This document shows positions 1 to 50,239 of a DNA stretch of 64,000 bases, piece by piece. Position 1 is the stretch's first letter. Every line of letters starts with the position of its first letter. Made by a program: the position numbers and the translations under genes. The notes under the pieces are model-generated. The model saw only the letters and a list, made by a program, of their open reading frames with translations, searched no databases and was not told the DNA's origin. Source of the DNA: Macrolepiota albuminosa (lineage: Eukaryota; Basidiomycota; Agaricomycetes; Agaricales; Agaricaceae); contig JAMWFC010000087.1 of the NCBI GenBank assembly GCA_027475525.1, positions 1-64,000 on the forward strand, given 5' to 3'.

Positions 1-1307
1 CGCGCCAACCACGAGCGGTGCTCCGTTTCGGCGTTGTGGAGGGCGCGCTGCGTCGCGCGGGAGCAGGGGTGGCCGCTGAAGGGGATCACCCGGAGGATGG
101 GGGTCGAGGAGCGGAACTGGGTGGTGGAGCCGGTGGACGAGGGGCTGGAGCCGGAGGGGGAGGCGCCCGCTGCGCCCGTGCAGTCGTCCAGCGGGGGGTT
201 GGGGGTTCAGGGGGTTGTCCGGGTGGGGGGCCGGGGCCGGCCTGTGGTCCTCATTACTCGCCGGGTGACCTGGGCCGGTACTGGGGGTCACGGGGGTCGA
301 GGGGGGCGCCCTGACAAAGGGAAAAGGCGGGTGTCGCCCAGCCTCTCACCAGGTCCGTCTAAGAGGGCGCGCCTGCCCGTGGAGACCCCGCCTCCATCTC
401 CGACCCCTTCAGTGTGCCTGTCCCCGGCGACGTTTTCTCCGTTGTCCGGGCGGCCCCTGAGTGCTGAGGTGAGGGCTTTGCAGAGGCGGTTGGAGCAGGC
501 CGACCAGGAGAGGGAGGAGCGCGAGGAGGCGGGGAGGGAGGAGGCGGTGCTCCGGCGGGGACTGGAGGAGGATCGGGAGGCGGCCCGCCGGGAGCTGGAG
601 GAGGCGAGGGTGGCCCGGGGGGGAGTCGAGGCCCAGCTGGACGCTATGCGGGCCAGGCTGGAGCAGGGGGTGGGGATCCCGACGCAGGGTCCCTCGGGTC
701 CGGAGTTGGTTGAGGCCCTGCGCCGGGACGTGGTCATCGGGCGCATGGCCTCCCTAAGTGAGCATCTCCCTCTTCTCGATGTTGGGTCGACACTGACCTC
801 TCCAGGCTGGGCTCGGGAGCATCGCCTGCTCCTAGACGGGGCTGCCGCGGCGCTCGCATCCCTACAAGAGGGGCTCCGGTCCGAAGCAGGGGACCCCGGG
901 GTGGAGCAGGGCCTGGACTTGTTGGGGAGGCTGGTGGTCGCGCACCGCCGGAGGAACGTCCCGGCCCCGGGGTCGTGGTTCGAGCGAGTTTTGGACGAGG
1001 GCGAGCCACTCCCGTCCTGCACCGCCGGAGGAACGTCCCGGCCCCGGGGTCGTGGTTCGAGCGAGTTTTGGACGAGGGCGAGCCACTCCCGTCCTGGGAT
1101 CAATTGGCCAAGGAGGTGTGGCGGGAGCACGGTCCGGGGGCGTGGGGGAGAACTTCCGAGGGTGGCCGAGGGGAGGGGGCGGGGAAGGTGGGGAAGGCGG
1201 TTCGGGGCCCTCGCTCTAAGGGCCCCTTCGTATGTTTCTTGGTACTGTTCGTCTTCGTGGTCCCGAATCCTGTACTATCTGTAATAGTAGAAAATGTATA
1301 TACCTGA
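1..1307 (+). CDS. Coiled-coil protein of a repeat family, 5' cut by the window
   Basis: The frame is open from base 1, so the start lies outside the window. The product is basic and proline-rich over roughly its first 130 visible residues. A strongly charged coiled coil of about 80 residues, rich in Glu and Arg (ALQRRLEQADQEREEREEAG), follows. The end is hydrophobic, with stop TGA at 1305-1307. A 77-bp duplication at 942-1095 shifts the frame. Skipping one copy joins the upstream frame to the frame ending at 1307. A badly decayed second copy lies at 20280-21112, so this is a dispersed repeat and probably a transposon gene. I do not recognise the family, and no catalytic motif is visible. The alternative is a fast-evolving host gene captured by a transposon. 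Confidence 0.5.
942..1095. repeat. 77-bp exact tandem duplication A
   Basis: Copies lie at 942-1018 and 1019-1095. They are identical and sit inside the coiled-coil ORF, shifting its frame by two bases. Confidence 0.97.
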
Positions 1308-1385
1308 CATGTTTCTTGGTACTGTTCGTCTTCGTGGTCCCGAATCCTGTACTATCTGTAATAGTAGAAAATGTATATACCTGGC
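1232..1385. repeat. 77-bp exact tandem duplication B
   Basis: Copies lie at 1232-1308 and 1309-1385. They sit at the junction between the plus-strand coiled-coil ORF and the 3' end of the minus-strand chromovirus, so this join deserves particular doubt. Confidence 0.97.
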
Positions 1386-1572
1386 TAATCTCGTAGAGAA
1401 CGGTGTAAGTAAAGTGGCGGGGGAACGGGAAAGAGTACCTTGCCCAGAGTCTGGGACGCTACTGTAAAGAAAGTACTAAACGGTAGGTAAGATCTGAAAA
1501 AAAAAGGGAAAAGCAGTAAGTGTTCGGTGGGAGTTGAATCCCTGCTGAGCCCAGAGGCGGGGGTTACGCCCA
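1308..1572. other. Junction between the two transposon sequences
   Basis: Apart from duplication B, no gene is seen. This is where the 3' untranslated part and 3' LTR of the minus-strand chromovirus would be expected. No match to the LTR at 9091-9808 was found by eye. A purine run at about 1496-1516 lies on the plus strand, the wrong strand for that element's polypurine tract. Confidence 0.5.
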
Positions 1573-1716
1573 CTACTGCCGTCTGTGAGTCCTGCGCCCG
1601 GGAAGACCGTTCCCCGGGTGCCGTTGTTGAAAGTTCCGGAGTTTGTCGAGGGCGCCTTCGAGGTTTCGGCGCGGTTCCCAAGTGTCGTCTTCCGGGCCGT
1701 ATCCCTTCCATCGTAC

Positions 1717-1870
1717 GAGGAAGTGGGGTCGTCCACGAATGTTCCGGGAGTCGAGGATGTCTTCAACCTCGTAGTGGTACTCGTCCTTGACCTGAGGAAG
1801 TGGGGTCGTCCACGAATGTTCCGGGAGTCGAGGATGTCTTCAACCTCGTAGTGGTACTCGTCCTTGACCT
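1717..1870. repeat. 77-bp exact tandem duplication C
   Basis: Copies lie at 1717-1793 and 1794-1870, inside the chromodomain coding region. Omitting one copy joins the two halves of the chromodomain in one frame. Confidence 0.97.
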
Positions 1871-4123
1871 TGACCGGGGGAGGGGGCTCGGGGCGTCGTT
1901 CAGGGAAGGGATCCGGGGGTGTCGTTCTAGGAGGCGGACGTGGAATACCGGGTGCAGACCTTTTAGTCCCGGGGGAGCTCGATCTTGTAGGCGTGGGATG
2001 AGACCTTCTTCAATATTTTGAATGGGCCGAGACGCTTGTGATCGAGTTTTGGAGAGGGCCGGCGGGTGCGGAGGTGTCGTCGATCTAACCATACCTTTGT
2101 CCCGGTGGCCCAGTCGGGGGTGTCTTCCCGTTTCCAGTCGGCGTGTTTCACGTAGGCCCGGTTCGCGGTGTCGATCTCTTCCCAGAGAAACTCGTGAAGG
2201 GATTGGAGATCCCGGGCGACCTCGTGGGCGGCGTGCGACGGGATGTCCCGGAGCGAGAGCGTCAGTCGAGGGTGGTATCCCTTGTTGGCAAAGAAGGGTG
2301 ATACCCCGGTGGCAGAGTGTGGCGTGTTGTTGTAGGTAAACTCGGCCAGGGGGAGCTCGGCGCGCCAGTTGTCCTGCAAGTAGTTGACGTACAGCCGGAG
2401 GTACTGCTCGAGGGACTGATTGACCCTTTCGGTTTGGCCGTCGGTTTCGGGGTGGTAGGCGGTAGAGAGGTTAGTCTTTACTTCAAGTGCCTTACACAGG
2501 GAAGTCCAAAACTTGGACACGAAAAGGGGGCCACGGTCGGAGACGATGTCGTCCGGGAGTCCATGTTTGGCAAAGACGTGCTCGAGGAACAGCCGGGCGA
2601 AATCCGGGGCGGTATCCGTGGTGTGGCAGGGTAGGAAGATGCCCTGTTTGGTCAGCCTGCACACAACGACGAGAATAGCATCGAACCCTTCAGATTCCGG
2701 GAGCTCGACGATGTGGTCTAGAGATATGGAGGACCAGGGGCGTCGCCCGACCGGCAGGGGTTTCAGGAGTCCGTATGGTCGGTGTCGGGGGACCTTGGCC
2801 CGGAGGCAGGGCTCGCACGATCGAATGTAACGGGTCACGTCCTTCTTCAACCCTGGCCAAAAGTAAGTCCGGGAGATGAGCTGGAAGGTCTTACGTATTC
2901 CAGGATGTCCCCGGAGTTTGTGGTTGTGGTGTTGGCAGAGGACGTCGTAGCGAAGTCGGGCGTGATCCGGGACGTAGATGCGGCCATTCCGGAGGAGGAG
3001 TTTCTCATCGGGGGACAAGGAGAAGGCGGGGTCCCGGTCGGTTCTGTCGGAAGAGTTTTGGGGGTCGTGATCGGTGAAGTACTTGTCTCGGGGAGCGCGG
3101 CGGATCTGGTTCAGGGTTCCTTCGTCGTTTAAGATTAGTACGGCATTCAGATGTTCGGGAGGGATCACCACGCAATGATTGAACGCATTGCGTTCCGCCT
3201 CGAACGACTTCTTGGGGTAGACGTCCGGACGACAGGTGAGGGCATCGGGTTTGGCGCCAAGTCGTCCCGGGCGGTACTGGATCGTGAAGTCGTATCCCGA
3301 GAGGATCTCGGACCATCGGGCCTGTCGTCGACTAAGCTGTTTGGTCGTGGTGAAGTACTGCAGGTTGTTGTGATCCGAGTAGACCTGAATCCGGTGTCGG
3401 GCTCCCTCGAGGTAGGCTCGCCACTGCTTGAAGGCTTCGACGATGGCGAGGAGCTCCTTGTCGTAGATGTCGTAGTTGAGCTCGGCGTCGATCATGGACC
3501 GGGTGTAGAAAGCGACTGGCCGGGGCTCCCCACCGTCAGGCTCCATCTGGGAGAGGATCCCGGCGATGGCGTAGTCAGACGCGTCGCATTCCAGGATGAT
3601 CGGGAGGGCCGGGTTGTAGTGCCGGAGTACCGGGGCGACTGTGAAAGCCTCCTTGAGCAGGTTAAAGACGCTCTGGCACTTACTGTCCCAGTTCCAGGCG
3701 ATGTCCTTGCGCGTGAGCCGGTTGAGAGGTTTCGTGATCCCAGAGTAGTTGTCTATAAACCTCCGGTAGAAGTTAGCGAAACCCAAGAAAGACTGTACTT
3801 CCTTGACGTTCCGGGGCTGCGGCCAGTTGACGATGGCCTCGACCTTGTGGGGGTCCATGCGAACGCCATTCGGGGATACTATGACGCCAAGATACTCAAC
3901 CTCTTCCGTATGGAATGAACACTTCTCGGGCTTGGCGTGGAGGTTGTGCTCCCGGAGGCGCTCGAGGACTTGCCGGACATGCTTCTGGTGATCCTCCGGT
4001 GAGTCGGAATAAATGAGGATGTCGTCCAGGTAGACGATCACGAAGACGTCACTCATGTCGTGGAAGATGTTGTTCATGAAGTATTGGAACGTGGCGGGGG
4101 AGTTAGTCATTCCGAAAGGCATC

Positions 4124-4277
4124 ACAAGGTACTCAAACAGACCATACCGCGTGCGGAACGCGGTTTTCCACTCGTGTCCTGGGGCGATGCGGACGTTGTT
4201 ACAAGGTACTCAAACAGACCATACCGCGTGCGGAACGCGGTTTTCCACTCGTGTCCTGGGGCGATGCGGACGTTGTT
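4124..4277. repeat. 77-bp exact tandem duplication D
   Basis: Copies lie at 4124-4200 and 4201-4277, in the reverse transcriptase just before the [11 protein letters not shown] motif. Omitting one copy makes the RT continuous. Confidence 0.97.
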
Positions 4278-4903
4278 GTATCCGGAGCGGAGGTCGATCT
4301 TCGTATAAACCTTGGCACTGCGGAGTCGATCGACCAGATCGCCAATGAGCGGGAGCGGGTAGCGGTTCTTCTTGGTGATCTTATTGAGTCCCCGGTAGTC
4401 GACACAGAGTCGGAGCGAGCCGTCCTTCTTCTTGGCAAATAGAACTGGGGCTCCGGCGGCGGAGGCGGAGGGTCGGATGAATCCCTTACTGAGCATTTCG
4501 TCGAGGTAGTCCTTGAGAGCCCAGAGTTCGACCTCCGACATGTTGTAGACCTTGCCGAAAGGGGGGGTGGCTCCTTCCTCGAGGTCGATGGTGTGATCAT
4601 AGGGGCGGTGAGGGGGGATCTCCTTGGCGTCTCCTTCGGAGAATACGTCAGCGAACTCGTGATACTCCGGGGGAACTACTTCTCAGAGGATTTGCTCCTC
4701 GGTTTTCGGTTCCGGGGGAATAGCGTCCCCTCGTAGGTGTTCTTCCGGGAGAGAAGGCGAGGTGTGCAGCTGAAACGTGGGAGTCCCATCCCTCATGAGG
4801 CGGGCGAAGGGGGCGGCCCCAATGATCCTAATGTCGAGTGCGCTCGGGTCGATTGGTGTTGCGGAATCATCGGCCGGAGCGGGTGTGACGCGTGTCTGAG
4901 ACC

Positions 4904-5057
4904 GGCAGGGGTAGTTCGGCCCCTTGTACTTGTTCCGAGGAATGTTTGGGGGTCGATCGGGGGCCTTGCGGTCTCGGATGGGCAGGGGTAGTTCGGCCCC
5001 TTGTACTTGTTCCGAGGAATGTTTGGGGGTCGATCGGGGGCCTTGCGGTCTCGGATG
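4904..5057. repeat. 77-bp exact tandem duplication E
   Basis: Copies lie at 4904-4980 and 4981-5057, in the linker between the second protease and RT. Confidence 0.97.
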
Positions 5058-5380
5058 GGTGGGGGTGGTGCGTTCGTGGGGGGCGCGGCAGTTGTCCCGG
5101 GGTGTCGGGCATCGGGTCGCTTCCTAGAGCCCGGAGGTGCACGGCGGTCGAGGGGTGGTCTTCGGGCCCCGGGAAGGTCATGGTGAGCGTCCTCCAGTCG
5201 ATGTCAGGGTTTGTGTCGCGCAGCCAGGGTAGCCCCAGCACCATCGGGGTCGATTCGTGAAGTCGCGTGACCAGGAAGTCGGAAGTGAACTCGTAGTTGT
5301 TGTCCAGGGTCACGCGTCCCGAGTGAGACCTTTGGATGGGGCCGGAGGAGGAGGGGGTGCCGTTGAGGCGCTGCAGGCGG

Positions 5381-5534
5381 AGGGGCTGGTCGAGGGAGTC
5401 GTGGGGGAGGTCGAGGGCGTCGCTGATGAAAACTCCGGTGGCTCCGCTGTCGATGAGAGGGGCTGGTCGAGGGAGTCGTGGGGGAGGTCGAGGGCGTCGC
5501 TGATGAAAACTCCGGTGGCTCCGCTGTCGATGAG
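5381..5534. repeat. 77-bp exact tandem duplication F
   Basis: Copies lie at 5381-5457 and 5458-5534. The unit covers the catalytic DSGAT motif of the second retropepsin, so the motif is read twice here for this reason alone. This is separate from the genuine presence of two diverged protease domains. Confidence 0.97.
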
Positions 5535-5677
5535 GGCCGAGACTGGTCCTGGGGCGCCGTCCAGCCTGGCATTGATGACGAAGGATCGGGATGAACGGGA
5601 CTGTCGATGAGGGCTGAGACTGGTCCTGGGGCGCCGTCCAGCCTGGCATTGATGACGAAGGATCGGGATGAACGGGA
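5524..5677. repeat. 77-bp tandem duplication G, one mismatch
   Basis: Copies lie at 5524-5600 and 5601-5677. They differ only at 5538 (c) against 5615 (t). It overlaps the end of duplication F. Confidence 0.95.
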
Positions 5678-6259
5678 CTGAAGTCCGGGGGGTGGTGAGG
5701 GCTCGTCCGGGGGTCCTTCGGGGTTGGGTTTGAGGAGTGGGGGATGTCGAAGGGGAGTTGCTGGTCGTCGGGGTCGGGTCCCGGGTCAGGCGAAGGGTGA
5801 GGTGTCGCCAATCGATGCGGGGGTTAGTGTCCCGGAGCCACGGGAGTCCTAAGACCAGGGGTGCGGAAGGGTGGAGTTTTGTTATCAACATCCGGAGGTT
5901 GTGAGTCTGTCCGTTGGCGAAGGTAACGGGCATACGCACGAAATGAGTGATGTCCCCCGCCGTAGAGGCGTCGCTGTCGAAGAGGCAGAGCCGTACCGGG
6001 ACCGGAAGTCGCTGGGCGGGTTCCGGGGCGAGGGTAGACCATGCTTCGTTGATGAAGTTGTCGGTGGCGCCGCTGTCGACGAGGGTGTTGAGGGGAGTTC
6101 CGGAGGGGGTGAGGCGGGTTTTGAGGAGGAGGGAGTGCGAAGAGTGGGAGGGTAGATAAGCCGTGAGGGTGTCCTGTACGAGTGTCGTAGAGCGAAGATG
6201 TGAGACCAGGGCGGAGAAGACGTCGGGGTCGATTCCGCGATTTAGGGCGTCTTCCAGGT

Positions 6260-9060
6260 CTAAATCGCCGGATCGTTTTCCGAATACTCGTAGGTGGCGT
6301 CCTCCCCTTCGAAGGTCCAGGTGGCACGTCCCATGACCTGTCGTTTGGGGCACTCGGAGATGAAATGATCTTTCTCACCACAGAGTATGCAGACACCCTC
6401 CCTTCTCCGTCGTTCCTGCACATCCGTCGGGACTTCGATCCAGGGTCGTCCCTTCTTTTGAAGCCGGTTGGCTCGGAGGGCCTCCTCGTCCCGTTCGTCG
6501 TCGAAGTCGAAGTCTTCGGGGTCTCCCGGGGGTTCCTCGGGGCTTGGCGCGTCGCCCGGGTCTTGGGTGGCCACGGCGGCGTTGAGCTGGGCCTGGGGGC
6601 GGGTGCCGCTGCCGGGGTTAGCATTGGGCGGGCCGCGACTCACCGGGGGTCGGCCGCCAGGGAACGCGGGGGGACCGGGGTTTCGACCTTGGGGGTTGGG
6701 AGCTTCGCCGGAGGGCCAAGGGGGTCCTCCTCTAGGGTTCCAGGGGGGTCGGGAATTCGAATACTCGCTGCGGTCTTCCCAGTAGCGTTGGTCGATCTGC
6801 ATGACGAGGGCCTTGTATCCGTCGTAGGAGGGTTGTTTCGGGGCGAGTCGGAGGACGTCCTTGATGCGTTGTGGCAGGGCGCGGCGGAGGGCGTACCGGA
6901 GGGCGCTGTAGTTCCAACCTGTTTCGTAAGCTTCCTTCTCAAAACGTACAATAAAGGTGGTGAAACGTTCTTCCGAGCGCATCCGGAGATTGAAGAGGTT
7001 GTCCTCGGCCTCGGCCACGGTGTCATAGATTCCGAACTTCCCGGAGAACTCGTCGACGAAGGCCTGCCAGCGAGCGAGTGCCGGATTGTTGGGGTCGAAC
7101 TGGATGAGAGCCATGTAGTGATCGAAGGCGATCCCCTGGAGGTATGATGCAGCAAAGGCCACCCGGGAGCTGTCAACCTGAAACGTGAGCGGCTTTGCCT
7201 GGAATGTATTGAGACACTGAGTGAGGAAGGTACGCCATTTTCGGGGGTCCCGGCCCGTGAAAGCGTCGGGCTTTTGGATGTCCAGTCGTCCTTCGCGGGC
7301 GAGGGCGTCGCGAGCGTCGTCCGGTCCGGCAGCGTTACGGGGAGGGGGGCCAGCATTGTAATAATAGTAGTAATGATTACCCCCTCCTCCTTGAGGAGGA
7401 AAAGCACCAAGGGCGGGACCCCATCCGCCGGGAGGTCCTCCTCCGGGTGGCTCACCTGGGGGTCCACGCCTGGGAGGTCCGTTGTCCCAAGGGGGTTCGT
7501 TCCTGCCAGGAGGGGGCCCGGGTCTCCACGCAGGGAGTGGCGGAGGTGGAGGGCCTGGGGGTCGTCCTCGAGGTTCAGCTGGGGGTGGCGGAGGCGGTCG
7601 GGGAGGGTTCGGCGGTGTCGGGTCGGGCGGAGGGGGGTTAGGTGCTGGGTCGGGTGCCGGGTTGCGCGGGGGACGTTCAATCCGGGAGGGTCGGGCTTGC
7701 ATCGGGGGTCGCGGGGGGTTGCTGGGTCGGGTGCCGGGTTGCGCGGGGGACGTTCAATCCGGGAGGGTCGGGCTTGCATCGGGGGTCGCGGGGGGTTCTG
7801 TAGGTCGAAGTGGGGTGGCGGATCGCGGCGGAAGTTGCGTTCTGGAGGGACCGGGGCTGACGTAGGGGGCGGTACCGGGACGGGCGCGGGCGCGGGGCGT
7901 GGTTCGTTGTTGCCACGCGTAAGCTCGTCGATGTAGCACAGCGTGTCGTCCGTGCTAGGGGTGTCCGCGCGGGGTCTGCCGGGGTTCGCCGGGGCCGGGG
8001 GTCGGGCGTTGTCTGTTCGTGGGAGGGGTTCCAGGGGTCTTTGGGGCTGTCCCCAGGTCTCGAAGGTACTAGGGACGGAGTTAGCCCTGCGGCGAGTTGA
8101 CAAGCCTACCGTGCGGGCCGCGGGTTGATCGAAGAGGCCTCCAGCCGGGTTGAGGGACCGTAATATGGCTGAGGCGTTCTGCCGTTCTTCCCGTTGTCGT
8201 TGCTCCGGAGTGGGGACCGTGGGGGCTGCCGGGACTGCTGGGACCGGTTCTGGGGGTTCCCGTCGAATGTGAATCGAGCGACCTGGGTCCGCGGGGTCGT
8301 TGATGGGCCGAGGGGAGGGGGACGCGTGGACTTTGTCGAGCAGTTGCTGTAATTCTTCCCAGAGGATCGTGTTGCGCCTATACTTTACCATGGTTTGCTC
8401 CGGGAGTTCTCCTCGCGTGAGGCGATCCCCGAATTCGACCAGGCAGTGAGCCCATTCCTCCGGAGTGCCTTCGAAGTCGTCGTGTCCAAATTCCACGAGC
8501 AGCGTCCTGGTCCGTTGCGCAAAGTCCTCTGGTGAGATCCTGAGGGAGCGGAGTACCTCGTCCCGTTGCCGTTCGTACTCCTCGAGGCGTCGTCGTCCCA
8601 TTGGCGAGGGAGGGGTTCGAGCGGGTGGAGCGGCGGCCGGGTAATGACGGGGGGGATAGTCGGGGTAGGGGGGTCCTCGGGGTTCTCGGGGTTGGGGGAC
8701 GGGGCGCTGATAACCGTAGTAGGGGGTGGGTGCGAAGGGGCCCTCGCTGGGGGGAATCAGGCGAGGCCCACTGGGTACAGGAGGGGTCTCCGGCAGGCCC
8801 CCGGGAATGCTCCGGTACGAGGGGACCTCCACGGGTCGTGCCATGGCTAGGTTGGGCGGAGGGGCCCAGCTGGCTGAGGGCCCCAGATCATAGAGGGATG
8901 GGTCGGGGGCCCAGTGGCGGTGGAGGTACTGAGGTTCGTATGGGAGGGGTGGGTAGACAGGGCGGGGGGTCTGCGCGGAGTAGTGGTCGGGTACCGGGCG
9001 TCCGTAAGGGTCGGTCTGGTACCCCGTGGGGTAGTAGGTGTGAGTATACGTAGCCATCAA
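6260..9060 (-). pseudogene. gag: Chromovirus Gag with CCHC zinc knuckle
   Basis: The reading starts at ATG 9060 with a very long proline-, arginine- and tyrosine-rich N-terminal part. A capsid-like segment (DAFTGRDPRKWRTFLTQC) lies around 7270-6800. One zinc knuckle CILCGEKDHFISEC (CX2CX4HX4C) lies near 6400-6355, and the stop is at 6260. Duplication H at 7644-7797 shifts the frame; one copy removed, the N-terminal frame and the capsid-knuckle frame are continuous, giving roughly 900 residues. That is long for a Ty3-type Gag because of the proline-rich N-terminal extension. Pol follows in the -1 frame with overlap, which suggests programmed frameshifting, although no classical slippery heptamer was found. 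Confidence 0.85.
7644..7797. repeat. 77-bp exact tandem duplication H
   Basis: Copies lie at 7644-7720 and 7721-7797, inside gag. It separates the two gag frames. Confidence 0.97.
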
Positions 9061-9090
9061 GAACGGTGTAAGGAGAGAGTCTTGATATTA

Positions 9091-12440: not shown

Positions 12441-12534
12441 CCGTTACTAATGGATAGATTCAAAGGTTGGATAACACAATGAATGGATGTCCACCTACAT
12501 TTCTGCAGATTCCTGTATGGAATTTTTGAGGTGG

Positions 12535-13472: not shown

Positions 13473-13630
13473 GTAGAAGGGGGGTGGCATACCTCCCAAA
13501 AGAGTTTTTGTAGCTTGAAAGGGGCATTGGCATCAGCAGCCATCAGCTGACATCCATCAGAGTTTGTTGGCAGCTGTCATGACCCGCTGGCATCCGTTGG
13601 CATCTGTTGTACATTTATTGGCATCTGCTG
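13473..13630. other. Short spacer rich in GGCATC/CAGC words
   Basis: No gene is seen. The text resembles 14159-14622 and the SINE body, which suggests shared repeat origin. Confidence 0.4.
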
Positions 13631-13635
13631 AATAT

Positions 13636-14153: not shown

Positions 14154-14158
14154 AATAT

Positions 14159-17769: not shown

Positions 17770-17781
17770 CAGCTCATATCT

Positions 17782-18594
17782 ATGGAGCTGGAGAAAACTG
17801 ACGACAACCAGATGGATATCCCTAATCCATCCATTAGTGACCCTGACTTAGAGAGTATCCCTTCTTTGTTCATTGTGGCAGATAACGAGATAGAAGACAA
17901 ATCTTTGCCACCTTTGTTCATTCTTGTAGAAAAGGAGACAGAAGATGAATCTTTGCCACCTTTGTTCATTCCTGTGGAAGAGGAGATAGAAGAGGATTCT
18001 TTGCCTCCTTTGTTCATTTCTGCAGAAAAGGAGATGAACGGTGATTCTTTGCCACCTCTATTCATTGTTGGTGAAGAAGCAGAAGGACTAACAGTGATGG
18101 AGACCATGGCGGCTAGTGACAGCAAACAAACAGAAGTCCAGAGCGGTGGATGTATGGTGACCAAGGACAAAGAAAACTTTCCGCTGCTATTTCTTGTGAC
18201 AGCAGAAGAGACGGATGGAGGCATGGCAGCCAATGACAAAGAAAAGCTTCCACTGCTTTTTGATGTAACGGCTCTTCAAATCCAGTTTTCCCCCTTCCAA
18301 CAATCTTCTTCTCCAACCCTACTTACTGGTAACAATGTCCAGGAGTGGGAGGAATATAAGACATGTATAACTCAACATGAGGATCAGAGAAGAATTAACA
18401 AATTGTATCAACAATGTGAGTATAATTTGGTACTGGTAATCATAGTTAATTTATTTCAAAAGAACAAGAATTTCATGCTAGAGCAAAATATGGTCAATGT
18501 AGGCCCATTGGCCCTTTCAATCAAGCTGGTCATACTGATGATGTGTCTGTTGATATGTCAGAGTCACCCTCACCATCTTCATCATCAGGCCTGA
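17782..18594 (+). CDS. Acidic protein with SLPPLF repeats
   Basis: The 270-residue frame carries five copies of a 16-residue unit centred on SLPPLFI followed by acidic residues, starting at residues 25, 41, 57, 73 and 89. Two looser copies (FPLLFLVTAE and LPLLFDVTA) occur near residues 133 and 156. A hydrophobic patch near the C-terminus may be intron read-through. The unit is 48 bp at DNA level, so the array is a coding minisatellite. Function is unknown. The steady spacing of hydrophobic motifs in an acidic background suggests a docking array or an activation domain, which is only inference. Confidence 0.4.
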   Translation: MELEKTDDNQMDIPNPSISDPDLESIPSLFIVADNEIEDKSLPPLFILVEKETEDESLPPLFIPVEEEIEEDSLPPLFISAEKEMNGDSLPPLFIVGEEAEGLTVMETMAASDSKQTEVQSGGCMVTKDKENFPLLFLVTAEETDGGMAANDKEKLPLLFDVTALQIQFSPFQQSSSPTLLTGNNVQEWEEYKTCITQHEDQRRINKLYQQCEYNLVLVIIVNLFQKNKNFMLEQNMVNVGPLALSIKLVILMMCLLICQSHPHHLHHQA

Positions 18595-18648
18595 TAGCAA
18601 ACTATGAAGACATTACACTTCCCAGACCTCAGGGGCCATATACACTGG

Positions 18649-20279: not shown

Positions 20280-21112
20280 AGATGGATGTGGAGGAGAGAA
20301 GCTGGGTGGTGGAATCAGAGGAGGCGCTATCAGGAGCATCCAGAGAGATGCAAACTGGGGGTGTGTCAGGCAGTGGGGCCCCTCTAGTAACATCTATAAA
20401 GGGGTTGCTGGAAAAATCCAGGGAGGTCCAAATAAAGGATGCACCAGGTAGTATGGCCCTGCTAGCGGCATCCATAGAAGAGCCTGGAGGTCTTCTGGAG
20501 GTAGGGATCTTATCAGGGTAGGGGGTCATGGCTGGCCTATGATGCTGGTTACACATAGGCCAACTTAGGTGGAAGCAAGCAGAGGAGATTGTAGCCAGAG
20601 ATATCTGGACAAGCAGAAGCAGCAAGCATTGCCTAGTCCTTCCCCAAGACTATCAAAGAGGGCATGTCCATCTTCAGAGACTCTGTCTCCTGCCTCCCTC
20701 CTGCATTTATCCCTGGCAGTGTTTTCCTCCTTATCAGGATGACTCTTGAGTGTCAACATGGAGGCTCTGCAGAAGCACCTATAGCAGGCCATGTGGGAGA
20801 GGGAGGAGCTCACTGATCAGCACCAGATGATGGCAGGACACCTCTAGAAAGTCCAGACATCCTTGGCATGCAGTTAGGAAGGGGCAAAGCAGGAGGTGGG
20901 GGGCCCAGAGGTGGGTGTAAGAGGACAGAAGAGCAGCACTTTAGGAGCTGAAGGCAGCATGAGTTGCTCAGAGAAAGCTAGAGGCAGAGTAGAATGCATT
21001 GCAGGCCTAGTTGGAGCAGGAGAGCTGAAGGCAGCATGAGTTGCTCAGAGAAAGCTAGAGGCAGAGTAGAATGCATTGCAGGCCTAGTTGGAGCAGGAGA
21101 TGGGGTATCTGG
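20280..21112 (+). pseudogene. Decayed copy of the coiled-coil ORF at 1-1307
   Basis: The translation keeps landmarks of the intact copy. VEERSWVVE stands for VEERNWVVE, a serine-proline block precedes SLSG, and an ALQKHL heptad segment stands for ALQRRL, in the same order. Stops interrupt it, many at positions where the GC-rich copy has CpG. The homology ends at about 21112, where LTR A3 begins, at the point matching about base 675 of the intact copy. Duplication I lies inside. Confidence 0.7.
20945..21098. repeat. 77-bp exact tandem duplication I
   Basis: Copies lie at 20945-21021 and 21022-21098, in the decayed coiled-coil ORF. Confidence 0.97.
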
Positions 21113-26585: not shown

Positions 26586-26595
26586 ACAAGTCATT

Positions 26596-28660: not shown

Positions 28661-30300
28661 TTATACTAAAGTTGCCACTATTGCCACCTGTCGATGTGCC
28701 AATTTTGGGCTGGCAGGTATTTCTGGTGACGGAGAGCGAGATGAACTAGGGTCCGCCGATTGTGTGTTCCCATCTGGTAACGGTTTCCGACCATCGTCTT
28801 CATCTTCCTCACCATACTCAGCTGATACCAACAAACCCATAACAGGGTTTCTCAATAGAGACCAATAACCCTTGGTAGCGCCTCCGATGGATGATCTCCA
28901 TTTTCGTTTTGGAAGGGCGCTTTGCACAGGGGTAACCAGTGATGCGACCTTCGGCCACGTTGAGCTGACAACAGGGACAAGATCCTCGTCATCATTGGCA
29001 TTGAAGTAATCCTCTTCCTCTGCATCTAGGGCTCGACTGGATAGTTGCCAACTGCGAGCATCCATTATCCTGAAGATGATACAGTTAATCAATGATGACT
29101 AAAAAGAACAAAAGCCGGAGTACTGACCTGTCAACTCCAGAGTCTGTCAGCGGAGGCTCCTTGTTCTGTTGCAATATTTCGAACTGTATCCAAGCGTTGA
29201 ATTGCTCAAAATGTTGACCTCCAAGCGGACTCTGCGCCAGTTTTCGAAGCTCATCTTCGTGGTTTGTCCAGCAAAACTTTCCGAGTTCCTTAACTTTTTC
29301 CTGAAAAGGTGGACAGTCGGATTTGTCTTTATGAGATTAGAGGTGGATACTGACCTTATGGATAAAGTTGAAGTACTCTTGACAGGAACAACTCAAAAGG
29401 TTGTTGCGTCTTGATTCTTGCAGAGTTAAATCAAGAAGTGGCTTGACCACGTCGTGCTTCATAATTTGAGTATGTATATTTGGATTGTTTTGTCAAAGAA
29501 GAAGCCGAAATATCTGGAAAGAAGCTGAGAAGAGGAGTTGGCTTTGACAAAAGTTGAGACGGAAGTAAGATATATGTACCATGCCACAAATGTTTGTCTC
29601 GTGCCTTGAGAAGGCTTGCAAGTTGGATGAGAATATTAGAAGACATTATATAGAAGTGTATCCGGAAGTGGTGCTGAGCCACAAAATTGTACATCAGATC
29701 ACTGAGGTAGACATAACGATTTGTTTCCTCTCGTGTCAATGGCAGCACGGTTTCTGAAGCATCCTAATAAGCTCAAAAATTCCCAGATGATAAATTTATT
29801 TTTACTCTCGTGTCAATGGCAGCACGGTTTCTGAAGCATCCTAATAAGCTCAAAAATTCCCAGATGATAAATTTATTTTTACCTTGGACATTTTGCCATT
29901 CAGGTAAGTCAAAAAACGGCTTGAAGAGAATCCCCAAACAATCTTTGTAAAAGTAGTCCATATAACGCTCAGTTCCTATGTCGTCCTTGTGCGGTGGCTG
30001 TTTATGAGCTCCAAGAGCCTTTATCACGAGTAAGTCAACTATGATCAAAAGAATAATATTCTTACCTGTCCTGGTACATAAGAATCCACACTAATAACAC
30101 ACAAAACAAAATCACTGAGCCATAAATATAAAATAAGGTATAAAATATATTTACATATAAATGTAAAAGTACGTACTCAAAGCAGTGTAATTCATTTTTG
30201 AAGTGCTTGAGATCTACTTGAGATTGATTATATGCGGTCAGGAGGTCGAGATAAGAATAATTACATGCATTTGTTAGCTCGGAATTAGCAGATCAAGGAG
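28661..30300 (-). pseudogene. PP4R3 (SMEK/Psy2) copy, 5'-truncated with a nonsense codon
   Basis: Several exons on the minus strand match the SMEK part of protein phosphatase 4 regulatory subunit 3, which targets PP4 to DNA-damage and other substrates in the nucleus. Seen in order are RYMDYFYKDCLGILFKPFFD, TREETNRYVYLSDLMYNF, SSNILIQLASLLKARDKHL, then MKHDVVKPLLDLTLQESRR, LLSCSCQEYFNF and the acidic tail start LDAEEEDYFNANDDED. GT-AG introns separate them. A TGA at 29493-29495 sits where an Arg codon (CGA) is expected, and KHLW has Trp where Arg is usual. Both fit C-to-T changes. The N-terminal PH/RanBD-like half was not found upstream. Duplication J adds a further frame break. It is most likely a dead partial copy, although sequence errors are possible. 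Confidence 0.75.
29728..29881. repeat. 77-bp exact tandem duplication J
   Basis: Copies lie at 29728-29804 and 29805-29881. The unit spans an intron and the start of the following exon of the PP4R3 copy. Confidence 0.97.
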
Positions 30301-33884: not shown

Positions 33885-34079
33885 CTTTCGGGACGTACTT
33901 TGCTTTTTTAATAATTTTCGTGAAGGAATTTATAGGTCGGGATGTACCGTGCACGTTGTGCGTCTGCATTGTTACGACAAGGTGGATGACAGCAGCTACA
34001 TTTACTATATCTTGAGCCGAAGAACTCGAGAAGTTTGTGAACAACCATAGAAAGCAACGCTTGCGCAAGTCTCTGACCC

Positions 34080-34437
34080 AGAGCCGGCGCGAAATGAGAA
34101 TAAACTTGGATCTCAATTCTTGATTGACAGGTGAACTTTTTCGTCTCGTAAATCATGTCTGAAAAAAGCATGTTCTGGGTCTCTCCCGTCACGATGGAAA
34201 TTGTGGAGCTGTAGCAAAAACCCCGTTTGTACAATTGCATCCTTTGGCCAGATACAAGAGCCAGCGCGCAATAAGCGTAAACTTGGATCTCGATTCTTGA
34301 CTGACAGGTGAATTTGTTCATCTCGTAAATCATGTCTCAAAAAAGCATTTTTTGGGTCTCTCCCGTCACGATGGAAATTGTCGGGCTGTAGCGAAAACCC
34401 CGTTTGAACGATTGCATTCTTTGGCAAGATACACTGG
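34080..34437. repeat. Diverged 177-bp tandem repeat, two units
   Basis: Units start TAAACTTGGATCTC at 34101 and 34278. They differ by scattered substitutions, so this is a genuine old duplication, unlike the exact 77-bp ones. It lies 200-550 bp upstream of the aquaporin start and may hold duplicated promoter elements. Confidence 0.85.
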
Positions 34438-37879: not shown

Positions 37880-38650
37880 ACTATATTTTTGAAATAGGTC
37901 CATTTGTGGCGCTACCAATTAGTGCCTCTCCTTGTGGTTGCAGGTAACAGCGACCTGTCAACAGCAACCGGCACACATGGGGAAACAGCAACCAACAGTG
38001 TTATAGCCCATTGGCCACAGTGACTCTAAACTGACTTAAACTTGTATGAGTCTGCTCACTTTTTAGTGTAATTCTGATTGGCCAGGCCTCTGCACAGTGA
38101 CTCTAAACTGACTTAAACTTGTATGAGTCTGCTCACTTTTTAGTGTAATTCTGATTGGCCAGGCCTCTGCGGGATATGGTCAGAAAATCCTCAACAGATG
38201 CCATGAGTTCTACTGTTGGCACTAAACCTTGTATCAATTCTTGATGGATAAAATGCTGGGCTAGAATATATCCTGTTCTGTTGCTGCTGATTCTTTAAAC
38301 TTCTGATTGAAGTGCCTCGTCCAATGGCAGCGCCTAATGCTAACCCCTTTATGGAACTGATTGGGGTTTGGTCAAAGTCATGTCCCTGCTGTCATGCTAG
38401 TGCCATGAGTCCTGGATCTCCTAATTCTCTAAAGTCAATGAGTGGTGTATGCTGAAGGCTTAATAGTGGTGGTTTAGACTGATAAACAACACCTATAATC
38501 GAGCACTAAAGCCCATGGTGTCCTGTGTCTGAGAGGATCGCTAGGGTCTCCAGTATGGCCAGTGTCCGTAGACCTGTAGTGTGCCCCTTGATGCGCTCAG
38601 TCTGAGTAGAAGCCTATCAGCAGCATGGAGGTGTCCTAGTGAAGCAGCCA
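37880..38650 (+). repeat. Repeat family C, copy C2
   Basis: It matches the reverse complement of 25870-26585. Copy C2 is richer in GC and CpG than C1. Duplication K lies inside. Confidence 0.6.
38016..38169. repeat. 77-bp exact tandem duplication K
   Basis: Copies lie at 38016-38092 and 38093-38169. The inverted C1 copy of this region at about 26400-26500 has it only once. Confidence 0.97.
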
Positions 38651-41600
38651 CACTATTGATCATATGCAGGTAGATACTACCATATGGAGATTTATCATGT
38701 ATGAAAGTCTCTTCACTCCTTCAAGTAGAAATAACCAGGTTTCTGAGCTTGCAACCAATATGTTGATGATGCCCAAAAGGGGCTAAGTACCATCAGATGT
38801 AATGGTGACCAAGCACACATATATGTAAAGTATTGGGCATGTTGATTAGTTGCTCAGAAGTCCAGGCAGGGTTATATCTACTTATGGTTGGAAAGAAACA
38901 TGCATTTGATAGTACTCAGCTGAGCAACTAAGTAGTAGTCAAGCTATAAGCATTTGTAAAAGGTGTGTGAATAAGTTTAAAATAGATTTAGCAACAATAA
39001 TATATCTATAATAATACTAAGAATTATGTAGACAAAGATGCTAGACAGAACTAGCTTTTAACAGCTTAAAAGCAAACTTCTGACTATAGCTACAAAAAAA
39101 AGTCTACTGCTATCTTTTTTTTCATTATAATATATGCCAACATATTGTCTATCAGTAGCACTAATATAGTAACAGTAGAATTAAAGTGCTAGTATCTAGT
39201 AATATGAAGCAATAGTCTAGTTTTGATAGATAGGCTCTTAGTTTATCACTAGTTTGAATCCATGAGAAAAATAATAGATGACAGCTGCTAGACAAGTTAG
39301 CTTTTCTAGAGAGTGTAGTATACTCATGTTATTATATTGAACAAGTCAAGTTTCAAGAATATCCCTATGCCTAGTCATAGTGTCAGCAGCAGTGTCTAAT
39401 CAAAATGCTGTATTTGTATTGTAAAGCTTGATTGTGGGCAGTAACTTGTTGATTATTCTTTAAAGAACCCTTCTGTAGTTCTAGAAAGTCATAGCAAGTG
39501 AATTTGAAGTTGCTAAAGTATGATGATTTATTCTGTGATTTGGTATGCTTGGCCAGAGTAGAATCTTATAAATACATATCTTACCAACTCTGCAATTATG
39601 CTCATCAACATTTTTCACAGTGCATGTCCATAATGTAGAATCTTATAAATACATATCTTACCAACTCTGCAATTATGCTCATCAACATTTTTCACAGTGC
39701 ATGTCCATAATCTCACTCCAAAAAAAGCAATTATAAAAATGATAGACATCATTTTTTCTAAAGATACTGCTATTTGACACTTAGTCCTAGCTCTGGTATC
39801 ATAAATTATTACACTGACCCTCACTCTGCATTTCATAAGGCCAGCTCAAAAAATGGCCAGTTTTGCAATTGTACAGTATGGACCAATCTGGTATTTTTAA
39901 AATTGCACTTTTTCTCACTTTATCAATGTGTTCTTCTGGAGTGAATCTCCTCACTAACAACAGTCCTATAAGAGGTAGCTAACATTCCTGGTGGCAAATA
40001 TAAAAGCTGAATTAAAGACATTGAAACAGTCTTTTCCATCACTTCAAAGCCAAAGGCACTGATGCTGAATGCATTAAACACTCAATGTATGCAGTGGATA
40101 ACACATCCAAGGCTGCAATATCACATAGAATCCAAATTGGCAACAGATGGGATATAGACTTCATATAGATGCACCTGTATGTAGGCTATGTCTGCTTTTG
40201 AAAATGGATAAATTAATTATCTTGACTCTAGAGCTATAACTGAAAGTTATTCTTCTCTTGTATAAACTTGGCAAGGAATGCTGCACTAAGAGTTTACTCC
40301 CAGGCATGCTCCATGTTCAACCATTGCATCATCAATAAAAGGTGCATCTGAGCAGAACACAAATTAATACCTATACCAGTCTACAGCATTTTATTTTTTA
40401 TAAAGACATCTTGTAAACTCATAGCAGGGCAAGAAGTAAAGAAAATAAAGGTAAAACATGATAATGCAGAAAAAGAAGAAAAAAAATAATATCTTTGAGA
40501 AAATATTTTTCTAATACTATTACCTGAAATGAGTAAAATCATATATATGCATGAGTAGATTAAGCACTATATCTAGTACTGCAATGCTCACAAGTTTATA
40601 TATCTATTTTATTTTAACAAATCAACAAATTTTAGCCCTGAAATGCCCTGTAATAAACCAATCCCACCTCATTGCTGTGTAATTGGAAGCTATCAGGTTC
40701 TGCTAATGTTGGAGACTTCTAGTAGCAAGTAAATCCTTACTGGATACAGCGATTCAGCACTCCTTTGCCAAAGGTATTCCTTTTCCAGTCATAGAGAAAC
40801 ATGCATAATTCTTGACAAATTGCCCTCAAAGTTATAGAACACCTAGAAATGAAGTATTACTATGTATTGTACAAGTTTTAGAGCAATTCTCAATGATTTG
40901 ATGGAATGAGTAGATGAACAAGGTGTGAAAAGTTAAAAAATGACAAATCTAAAGATGTAATCTCACAGCTGTATATCAAAGAGCACAGAGAATGTTCTAA
41001 AAAGTAGCTAATTATCTTGCTGGCATCTTTTTACATGATTTTATTCACTACAACAAGCCAAATAGATGAGAAATAGAGGAGAAACACATGGTTGAAGAAA
41101 TTGAGGGGATCAGCATCACATTTGCATTGATCAACTCTCATGCATAAGATGATCAACAGACAAACTCACCTCCTTTTGAGCTCTTGGACACACAGTTCTT
41201 TCTGGATTTGGCATTCTTACAGCAGAATGACTGGGCATGCACTCTCAGAACATGTCAAAAAGATCAAACATCATCAAGCTGCTAATTCTAAACTCCAGGC
41301 TGCAATTTGTCACATGTGATGCATCTGGGAAAAGGAATCATTTTTGTCATTTTGGGGATGTCTTCAAAATTCAACTATTTTATGGTACTTACTTCTATGT
41401 TAAAATTAATACATCTGCAAATGTCAAAAGTAGAAATGCTTTAGAAACTTTCTGTATACTCAGAATGTCCCCAAAATTTTGTGGTATTCTATAATTCAAC
41501 TTTATTCATCATGTGTGAAAAGGAATGCCAGAACACTGTAGACCTAATATTTCTAAAAGAAATTCTGGGGCCTACAGAGCATGTTGGCTAAGACCAGAGG

Positions 41601-42950: not shown

Positions 42951-43389
42951 GTGTGTATAGAGTGTGTATAGAGAGTGTGTATTATTCAATCTATTTTTAA
43001 ATTTCCAGTGGACCTTCTGATGATATGGTCTGAGATGATGAGGAAGCAAAGAGAACAAAGATGGATCAATTGGAAACTTACTCCGACGGAGGACTTCAGA
43101 GGAGTCACAGTAACCTTAAAACATTGTCTTGAAAGGGAGTGTTGCAGCCTTCCAAAGTTCTTCTTCAATTCCCCTGTTGACACACGTTCCGAGTCACACT
43201 TTCGGATAGTCGAATACATAGCTCAACTGAGACCATCAGTCCCGACGAACTGATTAATTGACGCTTGGGTACTAGGTCTATAGCGCGAGAGTCTCGGTGG
43301 GCCTAAGAGTACATCAACCATAGTCCTCGGTCCAAGGCATTAATGTAAAAACTTTTTCCGACAGGGTATGGTAAAGTATCAGGATCATG

Positions 43390-45357: not shown

Positions 45358-46553
45358 CGCGGCTACAATTATCTTCTACCTCTCGCGGCATGGTCTCTGG
45401 TGTCTCTCGCATCTTTATACATGTGAAAGATAGGAGTATGTTCGGCAAGTACCCGAATGGTCACGTCAACTGCATGGCTTGTTTACGCCCACATAACCAT
45501 CGTATGAGCCCACCTTCTACACCCGACCTGGACTCATAAAGTATAATCAACAGCTATACTCAAAAGGACTTCCATACGTGTGTACAACCTCATTCCACGG
45601 CGCCCACGCATATGGGCTTGGTCTCAACACCGTTCAGACGCGTAAAATGTGCCCCCCACCTTGGTCAAATGTATACAATTGCTGCACAAACTACAATTCT
45701 TCCATTCAATGCCATCTCCAGGATACAAAAAAGGACAATATGGTCTCGAAGCACACGGCTTTGATCTCATATCCTTTATTCTAGTCCACGTGTCATGTTG
45801 GCTATCTTCTTTGAGTTTAGGTGTGCATTCAAAGCAACAATTATAGAATAAGTGTTACCATTCAGTACGAATGATTGGCCTCAACCTCGAGCAATCGCTG
45901 GCCTTTTATCGCCAATGCTTCTTTCCTCGTCGACACATATACCAGAAAAGGTACGACATTTCCCTTTAGTGATGAACTTTTCAAGCTTCCACCCCTCTCC
46001 ACTAGTCCACTGCTAACGGAGACGAAGTAGCTCATCATGGCTGTGCGGTGCCCCTGTGAAATTTAAATACTTGTCAGGGGTGTCCATGATGCTCGTACCT
46101 GAAGTCAACATTGCGATCAATTTCAATAGATATCGGTTTCGATGTTTGTTTCTGGTATTTCGTGATGGTTGATAAACGTTATCATCCACTGTTGTATCGG
46201 CTTTACTTCAAAGTTTTGCCGGTATCTCCGTTACTCGTGGTGAAGGCAGATCTTCTGGAAGAAATTGAACTCTTCAAGAGGTCGATGAATATTTGACGCT
46301 CATTATCATTCCATAGAGGATGTCTACTACAAGTTTAGCATAAGCGTGTAGATGTTCAATTTATCCTCACGCATCCAAAAGTCTCGCACTAGCACCTTCA
46401 AGAGGTTACTAAAAATGAACTTTACGTGCGTTGCTTCGTTTCGTTCAAGGCTAGTCCAAATTTTCGTTGTATTCTGTCCACGCCACAGAAGCTTCGTGCT
46501 GAACCACCTACCATAAAGATGGAGCTGTGATTATCGATTTTGGGAACCACAGG
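45358..46553. other. Intergenic, no gene seen
   Basis: The upstream region of the transporter. Only short, unconvincing frames are present. Confidence 0.5.
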
Positions 46554-46736
46554 TCACTGGAGATTGCCTTGTAGAACTACCATTCCACCGGGAGCCAGAC
46601 CTTGTCCAGGACCTGGAAAAACGTCCAGTTTTGGATAAGGGGGTGTTATCTTGTTGGTCGAGTTTTTACGGTACCATTCGCAATAGGTCTGGCTCTGCGA
46701 CAAAGAGTTGATTATTCGGTAGAATGTCTGGATCAT
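46554..46736 (-). CDS. Small unrecognised protein or exon
   Basis: A 60-residue frame beginning MIQTFYRIINSLSQSQTY with a glycine-proline-rich end (FPGPGQGLAPGGM). The composition looks protein-like and the frame is well delimited. It could be a small gene, or the last exon of a gene whose other exons lie at 46800-47180. I do not recognise it. Confidence 0.25.
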   Translation of the reverse strand: MIQTFYRIINSLSQSQTYCEWYRKNSTNKITPPYPKLDVFPGPGQGLAPGGMVVLQGNLQ

Positions 46737-47095
46737 GGTTGCCCTTCTCCAAACTTTGTAGATGATAACCCTCTATAAGATAGAAGAAATGTTCAGGATG
46801 TAGGACCCGACTTGAAACCTAAAAAGGTTGATTACCAACGGCTGCTTGTTTGTCTGATTAAGGTTAAACAATGTCCGTCTCGAATGCAAAAAAGTTTACA
46901 GAATTGGTGTAAGTGGCGTATTGTTTCTCACGTCTTGAAAGCAAAAACTGCTGCTAAAACTGTACACACTCTGTTCATCCAATGAAAACTCATTCCGAAC
47001 AAGCATCCTACTTCGTGAGGGGTTGCCACTCTCAGGGCGCCAGACAAGGTTGAGAAACGGAACCTTGTTTTCGGAACTCGGAAACTTCCATAAAC
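46737..47095. other. Spacer between divergent small ORF and next gene
   Basis: No supported gene. Minus-strand frames at 46896-47177 are probably shadow. Confidence 0.4.
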
Positions 47096-48287
47096 ATGGA
47101 CTTTGACAAAGACTTCGTTGTTCATAACTACTCCACGACCTCAACGCAACCTTCAAATTCTCTATTACACACTGCATATAAACTCATATGTGATACGTGC
47201 TCTGAATCTCCGGACTGGGTAAATGTCACAGCTGCCAATGCTCCCTTGATCAAATTTGGTCACACCAAAAGTAAGATTCTCTGGTTGTGACTAAAGAAAA
47301 GAGCTCAATTGTTCGTAGAACTGGTCCAGTACCCACCTTTTCTTGAAACCCTTCATGAAAAACGACTAAATGATCAGGAACGTCAGACTGACGTTGACTG
47401 GGGTGCTCCAATTGACGAACAAGTTGACGTTTTTTCTCTCAAGGACTTGGAAGAATTCCAAGCCACCGATCTTAGCTTTTTATTCAATGATACTTCTAAA
47501 CAAATAGCCTTGGATCTGCATCCGACGTCTATATCTCGAATACTGCCTTCAGTAGAGGAAGGTTCCCTCTATGCAGTAATACCACAGGTAGGGGGTACTA
47601 ACGCACCTAATTTCGATCCCTTCCTGAGCACATTTTTAGCCTCATGTCCACCCGTCATCATGTTCTAAACTCAGCGGGTCTTTAAAATTGATACCTTACA
47701 CAAAGACGAAGCCCATACTGATACCTCCCCGTACTGAATCATTCTCACCTTCACCCTACTCTCGTTCTGCTTGGCTGGTTCCAATCCGTGGCAAACCTCC
47801 TTGGGAACAATGTACGGCTGCTCTCGTGCTCAATTCCTCTTACGATGCTTCTCATCTCGACCCGAAGAATCGGGGAGAGATCATCTGGACGCCTATGTCC
47901 ATTCAATCCTTCTGGAATTTCTTACTCGAGGTCAAGGCAAGTGGATCAGCTGGCGCAATTGGTCTCTCCTTCCATGGCTCGCGTAACACTCCATTGGTTT
48001 CCCAATCAATCCACACGGCATCTTCAGTGATACCAGGAAATCAGCAAAGCATGGTCGCCAGTAACCCTCGCTTGGAATCATTTACCTCCACTACAAATCC
48101 TCGTTCCCTCTTGTCGACTCTAGACTATATCAAAATCTATCACGAGGGTCTTAATGCAATGCACCTACGAAACATGTTGCATCTTTGGTCATATACGGAG
48201 CCACAGCTATCGAGAAAGATCAGAGTCTTGAAAGGAGCCACCCTGGCCTTGATCGATGAACGTTCCAGGGGGATTTTGTTGTCTTGA
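47096..48287 (+). CDS. Unrecognised protein, three exons
   Basis: ATG 47096 opens MDFDKDFVVHNY. A first intron lies at about 47259-47303 (donor uncertain, either 47259 or 47271). Exon 2 runs from 47304 to 47587 (ELVQYPPFLETLHEKRL, then DVFSLKDLEEFQATDLSFL). The second intron is 47588-47639, GT-AG and phase 0. Exon 3 ends at stop 48285-48287, with a C-terminal block LDYIKIYHEGLNAMHLRNML followed by LSRKIRVLKGATLALIDERS. The frame stays open through about 650 bp of exon 3 with ordinary codon use, so it is a real gene. No membrane segment, signal peptide or named domain is visible. The total is roughly 360 residues. Confidence 0.6.
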
Positions 48288-49195
48288 AAGCGGACTCTCT
48301 AGATTCTATCATCCTTTGTTCACATTTTGGTGGTGTGGAGAGACTGTTGTGTACGGAAGCAATATCCTAGATGCCAGGTCTCGTCATTCATCACGGCAAA
48401 ATCCTTCTTGGAGTTCGTTCGTCTTTCATGCCCAAACCTTGCTCATCATGCCATGAATGAATGAATGCATAAAATTCAGCCGTCGGCAAGCTACACTATT
48501 GAGCTAAGAAGCAGGGGTTGATCTCAAGCATATATATCTACGGCGTCCTAACCATCTCCATCCTGACTTCCGCTTCCTTCAAAACCTTCTTCATGCCAAC
48601 TCTACTTCCACATGCTTTATCGTTTCCAGATAAGCACAGCTCTTGTGTTTTTGGGTCAACAACCTTCTTGGGTTTCGCAAACTATGAAATACTCGGTTTA
48701 GAGTAATGCTTCAGAACAGCTCTTGTGTTTTTGGTCAACTTTCTTGAGCTTAGCAAAGCTTTAGAGCCAAGCTTTAAAAGCTAAAAAGCTAAACGACCGT
48801 TGCCTCTACGGAATAGGAAAACCTGGATCGCTATCTTGTAATATATGTAATATATGGAGGGATACATAATCATAAATCTGACGTGCCAGTCCGAGGTCGG
48901 CGTTACGTGCTATCTAGTGCTGAGAGCCATCCTCGTTCCGCTGGAACTTTTCTATTTCTTGATGACATACACATATTTACTGCTTTTGAGTGTAAACAAC
49001 ACTTTCAGCATTACCTGGATATCACTCATCCAATTAGTCGCTGACGAAGTCTTCGTGACCCCATCATGACGGTGAAAACGCCTCTCCATGCATGAGAGGG
49101 TACCTTTTCACATAATTCATTGAGGACGTCATAATTATCATATATCACGGTTTGACGTGACGTGACAAAGCCCGTCCTTGCCCACACCACGAAGC
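48288..49195. other. Intergenic, no gene seen
   Basis: It contains an imperfect 80-bp duplication (AGCTCTTGTGTTTTTGG at 48638 and 48718) with clear divergence. The promoter of the next gene should lie at the end. Confidence 0.5.
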
Positions 49196-50239
49196 ATGGC
49201 AGCCAAAGAATCCCAAGTCACCCTGCCCAACTCAGAAGAAGACGACGAAATGTACTCCTACTTCAACAAAAGCATCTCTGCCGTGCAAGAACACGCTGAT
49301 CAGTAAACCACACTCCCGCTTTATCAAACCCTTACAAATTCACTCACAAATAACGACGAGTTTCGTAGCTTTGAACAAGTATACGCGCGTCCGGCTCTCA
49401 GGACGTCTCAAGCATTCTTTGATGAACACCCGATAGCTGCTGTGGGTTCTCTTAGGCAACCAACCCTAGGCTGTTCTAATTGCGATTTGTTCGCATGTAG
49501 ACTTTTATTGCTATTTTCGTGTCTTTGAGCATCGTGCCAGTGGTGTTGTTCTTGTGCGTCCTTCTTATTACTTTCTCTGCTTAGCAACACATGATAAATG
49601 TCTCTTATTAGAGGACTTTCGCTGTTTGCTATCGCTTCATTTACTATCGTCGCGCTGACCACGACCGTCATCCTTTCCGCAACCGTGGTTCTATCATTAC
49701 GTATGAGTGGCCTTTACTTTCCTTTCCCTTCCAACACACTCAAACAATTCACCCTTAGTCTCTCTGCTAATCCTGACATTACTGATGGCACTCGCTTCGT
49801 CTGCTTTCCTAACGATATCTGGCATATCCATCTACGCATTCGCGTCTCTTCTGAGTTTCCTCAGAGTACACGGAAACCACGGCGTATCCTTATGGGCAGA
49901 CCAAATGACGGAACTGGTGCGTCTCTTCTGAGTTTCCTCAGAGTACACGGAAACCACGGCGTATCCTTATGGGCAGACCAAATGACGGAACTGGTATTCG
50001 GATCCGGAACTCTTCCTCTTCCTCCTTCGGCGAATTCCCATCTGAACGACGAGGGCTCGCCACCTACTGATGGGCGGGACGAAGCCGCATTGTCTGATGC
50101 CGAAGACCATATGCCATTGGTAGAATGGCGGTTGTTCGAGCCGAAGCAGGATGGCCTAGCGACCCCTTCCTCTTCCTCTGCTCACGATCGCGAACCTCTT
50201 TCCAGAGAAAATGGAGACTTGGTGGATCATTCGAGATAG
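49196..50239 (+). CDS. Probable promethin/LDO-type lipid-droplet membrane protein
   Basis: Exons run from ATG 49196 (MAAKESQVTLPNSEEDDEMY) through several short GT-AG introns to stop 50239. The soluble start is followed by VYARPALRTSQAFFDEHP and then long continuous hydrophobic stretches. The run around FIAIFVSLSIVPVVLFL splices at a GTGCGT donor to the run GLSLFAIASFTIVALTTTVI, and a third block is ALASSAFLTISGISIYAF. An acidic Ser/Pro-rich cytosolic tail (SDAEDHMPLVEWRLFE) follows. A short N-terminus, two hairpin-like hydrophobic regions and a polar tail fit promethin/LDAF1 and yeast LDO proteins, which work with seipin in lipid-droplet assembly. No single diagnostic motif proves this. Duplication M breaks the frame in the last membrane segment; one copy removed, it reads through. 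Confidence 0.5.
49842..49995. repeat. 77-bp exact tandem duplication M
   Basis: Copies lie at 49842-49918 and 49919-49995, in the promethin-like gene. The frame before copy 1 continues only if one copy is left out. Confidence 0.97.

Follow-up and report, generated by a model that had tools for sequence, protein, structure and literature searches.

The first 64,000 bases of contig C72 (the window; the assembly comprises 100,137,612 bases in 129 contigs) contain thirteen two-copy tandem repeats with a period of exactly 77 bp. We conclude from comparisons of the deposited sequence that these pairs are almost certainly false tandem duplications created during assembly, in which the 77-base overlap shared by adjoining contig ends was left uncut. 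The finding is no new biology; it is a warning about this assembly, which comes from a mushroom close to Termitomyces. A direct scan of the window at periods of 15-599 recovered the thirteen pairs, and Tandem Repeats Finder listed the same 13 sites; the only other two-copy run at these periods belongs to a minisatellite of period 39. While the first-pass annotation had correctly placed thirteen pairs with two copies each at these positions, it had taken all but one to be exact; two pairs are in fact mismatched (76/77 each), leaving 11 of the 13 exact rather than 12. Eight pairs fall within the first 7.8 kb, which is mainly one LTR retrotransposon, and five are spread across the remaining 56 kb. 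The features, including one converse case, are as follows (only one has an assigned strand, given as +).

942..1096, no strand: 77-bp pair, exact (match run 78); scan and Tandem Repeats Finder
1232..1385, no strand: 77-bp pair, 76/77, mismatch at unit offset 75; scan
1717..1870, no strand: 77-bp pair, exact, in retrotransposon; scan and Tandem Repeats Finder
4124..4277, no strand: 77-bp pair, exact, in reverse-transcriptase region (gene on the - strand); scan and Pfam
4904..5059, no strand: 77-bp pair, exact (run 79); scan
5380..5534, no strand: 77-bp pair, exact (run 78), protease region; scan and Pfam
5524..5677, no strand: 77-bp pair, 76/77, mismatch at unit offset 14, beginning 144 bp after the start of the preceding pair; scan and Tandem Repeats Finder
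7643..7797, no strand: 77-bp pair, exact (run 78), gag region; scan
20945..21100, no strand: 77-bp pair, exact (run 79); scan, partner C122:77894-78252
29728..29882, no strand: 77-bp pair, exact (run 78); scan, partners on C92 and C43
38016..38170, no strand: 77-bp pair, exact (run 78), in repeat family; scan, partner on C122
38320..38396, no strand: converse case, unit single in the window and present as a 77-bp pair in the partner on C122 (L048:505)
39558..39711, no strand: 77-bp pair, exact; scan, partner C122:102410-102832
49842..49995, strand +: 77-bp pair, exact, in promethin-family coding sequence; scan, partner C122:113073-113454

Tandem arrays of 177, 48, and 39 bp (34080-34433, 17864-18070, and 56959-57080, respectively) also occur in the window; their copies have diverged and, in contrast to the 77-bp pairs, they look like ordinary real repeats.

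The same period dominates elsewhere in the assembly. We sampled 18 ten-kb stretches of the 100.1-Mb assembly, systematically rather than at random (two further contigs were too short), and found 40 pairs of period 77 (run of at least 76) versus four of all other periods, one each of period 20, 21, 24, and 60, which amounts to one fixed overlap length across the assembly. Runs of at least 77 number 39 and are spread over 10 of the 18 stretches, so that the search of the remaining assembly proposed in the first-pass annotation, carried out here on samples, did return further exact pairs. Extrapolation to the genome gives about 21,700 (rounded, 22,000) period-77 pairs, a very rough figure with a bootstrap range of 10,000-36,200. 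When the window, seven paralogous retrotransposon loci, and the 18 samples are taken together (267,450 bases), 66 pairs of period 77 (11 + 15 + 40; run of at least 76) stand against five pairs at all other periods from 20 to 1000, an excess far beyond chance.

Across all loci collected before the partner comparison (302,470 bases), 97 pairs reached 66/77. Of these, 86 are exact, nine carry a single mismatch, the pair at L008 carries five, and that at L032 is clipped by a locus edge. In the 86 exact pairs the match extends past 77 by 0-5 extra bases in 45, 26, 12, 1, 1, and 1 cases, compared to chance expectations of 48.4, 24.2, 9.1, 3.0, 0.9, and 0.3; the overlap is thus exactly 77, with no homology beyond chance past the unit. 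The one-mismatch pairs lie at 1232 and 5524 of the window and at L010:9460, L022:3984, L024:6954, L024:7714, L031:571, L037:422, and L037:938. These nine of 97, plus the five-mismatch pair, are a point against our reading, as a bare k-base overlap does not predict them; single changes within pairs could be explained by polishing after the join, and the five-mismatch pair (L008:2820) may be a different thing. Exact joins come as close together as 116 and 119 bp, which means that very short pieces were placed and suggests that they would have been joined along the graph or with the help of long reads, and not solely by read pairs.

Partner copies elsewhere in the assembly carry the unit once. 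This holds for all five window sites outside the retrotransposon, each compared with an allelic or repeat partner, and for three further sites with compared partners (L015:6596, L014:7291, and L026:6832). The sites at 20945, 38016, 39558, and 49842 have near-identical partners in the same order on contig C122, which look like the other haplotype of a dikaryon, while 29728 has partners on C92 and C43, each with the unit once. For L016:6636, no partner was found in the assembly. At L024:9195, which lies in a repeat, 34 copies among the matches listed align as two overlapping segments, the pattern expected of a single unit, and four others match across the join. In the deposited sequences compared, the second unit copy is absent from the partner loci and, at 49842, from a homologous protein. 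The window from about 20780 to 50150 and C122 from about 77900 to 113450 form a near-identical collinear stretch; part of the genome may accordingly be represented by both haplotypes in the 100-Mb assembly.

De Bruijn graphs terminate an edge wherever the neighbours of a k-mer differ. We therefore compared the bases touching each unit between a site and its partner copy. The unit is present exactly in the partner at seven of the eight sites, and the touching base differs at six of these seven: 20945, 29728 (C43 copy), 39558, 49842, L015, and L026 (one of three partners). With the converse comparison (window 38320 versus L048:505, where the left base differs), there are nine comparisons, eight with the exact unit in the partner and seven of those eight with a differing touching base. 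By comparison, 21 of 679 control 77-mers shared with partners near the same eight sites branch. Fisher's test gives p 1.4e-8, computed on six of seven before the eighth comparison was added and only indicative, because neighbouring control 77-mers are not independent; when comparisons are restricted to those of unambiguous register, five of six have the branch signature. At 49842, the sole mismatch to C122:113073-113454 within 392 bp ending with the unit is the base just to its left: the haplotypes differ by one base at 49841, and the 77-mer just after it is doubled whereas the 77-mer just before it is single. At 20945 and 39558, too, the partners (C122:77894-78252 and C122:102410-102832) differ at the base left of the unit. 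The C43 copy of 29728 has the exact unit at register 29729 with a different left base, and two bases within the unit are mismatched in the C92 copy; both 20945 and 29728 allow two or three registers, of which one fits the signature. The signature is absent at 38016, compared with a C122 partner that has two mismatches inside the unit, and at L014:7291 the touching base is the same and the difference lies one base further out. In six of the seven signature cases it is the left-hand base, in the written orientation, that differs, which may be chance in so few cases.

Given that the units are single in the partners and that their touching bases mostly differ, they correspond to branching vertices of a de Bruijn graph with k = 77. 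None of the 21 branching controls is doubled, so the fault hits only part of the joins, as would be expected if contig ends were joined later, rather than every graph edge being affected. We propose the following sequence of events. In a short-read graph with k = 77, edges would end at 77-mers common to haplotypes or repeat copies, with different neighbouring bases in the two copies, and the adjacent edges or contigs would each retain the common 77-mer; later, contigs would be abutted, and some of the joins would keep both copies of the 77-mer, which now appears twice in a row. The assembler was presumably SPAdes, for which 77 is the usual top k with short reads; this attribution is likely, and the role of a separate joining program and the origin of one-base mismatches in later polishing are similarly conjectural. 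The first-pass annotation had suggested untrimmed joins from a k = 77 assembly, and the sampled spread, the single-copy partners, and the branch signature in seven of eight comparisons support it.

Repeat junctions allow a second branch test. Window positions 1-9000 hold a GC-rich LTR retrotransposon with pieces of gag, protease, reverse transcriptase, RNase H, and integrase; its family is large, with 526 first-look candidates in one search and 622 in another, and each of the seven paralogous loci has 77-bp pairs of its own. Since loci were chosen by BLAST rank, which favours a nearby duplication, the number of such loci says nothing about frequency. For site 4124, 40 family copies were scored: in 30 the match stops at the end of the first unit, and in nine others it continues across; seven of these nine were compared, and each has its own 77-bp pair near the equivalent place. 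Among 45 junctions with unambiguous register, in the loci collected before the partners were added, 12 units recur in another fetched locus and 33 do not; nine of the 12 branch, compared to 1774 of 15494 controls (11.4%; p 5.5e-7), and three do not branch within the fetched loci. This count, which excludes false neighbours and junctions of ambiguous register, supersedes a looser one of 16 of 22 family junctions against 1660 of 13963 controls. Before artefact correction, the 77-mer unit of the pair at 4904..5059 counted as branching in 7 other retrieved loci. The junctions of eight aligned retrotransposon copies fall at five places, one of which is shared by four copies, and the unit copies within each locus are identical in all eight. 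The place shared by four of the eight copies could reflect a duplication inherited within the retrotransposon; a shared graph vertex accounts for it equally well.

Could another artefact have repeated 77 bases, such as gap-filling, polishing, or an adapter or read-length effect, rather than a graph overlap? Runs of exactly 100 N occur nearby, at L006:2123 and L012:6703 (two of 26 sequences scanned), and such runs are the usual mark of a scaffold gap of unknown length; moreover, not all branching 77-mers are doubled, and both observations would suit this explanation. Adapters are excluded by the unit sequences, which are unrelated. The units also coincide, at 77-base resolution, with branching 77-mers, an indication that the ends came from a k = 77 graph irrespective of the joining software. 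We therefore regard such an origin as very improbable.

Even less probable, to the point of being negligible, are real duplications by a cellular process that always measures off 77 nt, such as a templated insertion whose length does not vary. Such a process would accommodate repeats that are present in the deposited sequence hugely above chance, as well as the common junction place of some retrotransposon copies. It would, however, have to hold its period to the base at unrelated sites where microhomology does not exceed chance, leave the partners without a second copy, and break genes with no sign of selection; moreover, the units adjoin a haplotype or repeat difference in seven of eight cases, for which a cell has no reason. 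A mixed situation, with a share of the pairs being real and arising by 77-nt tandem copying in one nucleus of a dikaryon where the haplotypes start to differ, strikes us as no less far-fetched. Ordinary tandem duplications that arose long ago and at various times, produced by replication slippage or microhomology repair, are the least credible source: diverged arrays of 39, 48, and 177 bp do exist in the window, but such events would vary in period and divergence, and the period spectrum, with 86 of 97 pairs exact and other periods almost absent, refutes them.

False duplications arising from assembly are already well described (PMC2864568 and PMC9516828), and untrimmed k = 77 overlaps share features with several known cases. 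PMC7379835 states that, with most de Bruijn assemblers, neighbouring edges share K bp; SPAdes was used in that study with k of 21, 33, 55, and 77. Similar to this normal overlap, the doubled stretches have the length of a k-mer parameter (77 being among the SPAdes values) and end at branching vertices; the overlap described there is, however, a property of the graph file, whereas here it persists in the final sequence as a duplicated segment. The false segmental duplications described by Kelley and Salzberg, 2010 (PMC2864568) likewise give the illusion of adjacent duplication in a diploid or dikaryotic genome, with exons falsely doubled, but involve whole haplotype contigs placed twice and of many lengths, in contrast to the fixed-length contig-end overlaps seen here. 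The heterotype and homotype duplications of Ko et al., 2022 (PMC9516828) also disturb gene models in public assemblies; their cause is haplotype divergence or read errors, often with a gap between the copies, whereas the window pairs have no gap, a fixed length, and the character of an untrimmed graph overlap. A false haplotype (heterotype) duplication was rejected for the present pairs, given that 86 of the 97 pairs consist of identical copies and the other haplotype lies on another contig. In the literature that we searched, mostly at the depth of title listings, we found no description of false tandem duplications of k length.

The assembly thus probably contains thousands of false 77-bp insertions, and gene models, pseudogene counts, retrotransposon dating, and haplotype indel comparisons derived from it would be wrong. 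Combining a fixed period with a branching 77-mer test requires no reads and can be applied to the screening of other assemblies.

The consequences for genes are visible at individual joins. As 77 equals 2 modulo 3, a spurious 77-bp insertion in coding sequence shifts the frame. At 4124, the Pfam profile RVT_1 is matched from 2 to 97 in one open frame and from 81 to 205 in the next, with 81-97 read twice. Likewise, P0121, a protein of Termitomyces sp. Mi166 assigned to Pfam Promethin (48.9 bits; cut-off 27), aligns at 49842 in two frames: residues 107-161 match 49755-49919, and residues 136-174 match 49919-50035 in the second frame, with residues 136-161 read twice. Both split frames are such as a spurious 77-bp insertion would produce. 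The first-pass annotation had named a reverse transcriptase, a chromodomain, and a promethin-like helix as broken by the extra copy; the claim holds at the two sites checked, the reverse transcriptase and the promethin gene, and the chromodomain was not confirmed, as the pieces at 1476-2009 and 1763-2470 match no Pfam family at E 0.001, which neither confirms nor excludes it. The GT8 protein encoded at 50943-51872 is closest to one of Termitomyces sp. Mi166 (77%), followed by matches in T. cryptogamus (73%), Termitomyces sp. T159_Od127 (73%), and Blastosporella zonata (69%). The locus tag of P0121 is four numbers from that of the closest GT8 match and both lie on contigs of equal size, so the gene neighbourhood looks conserved.
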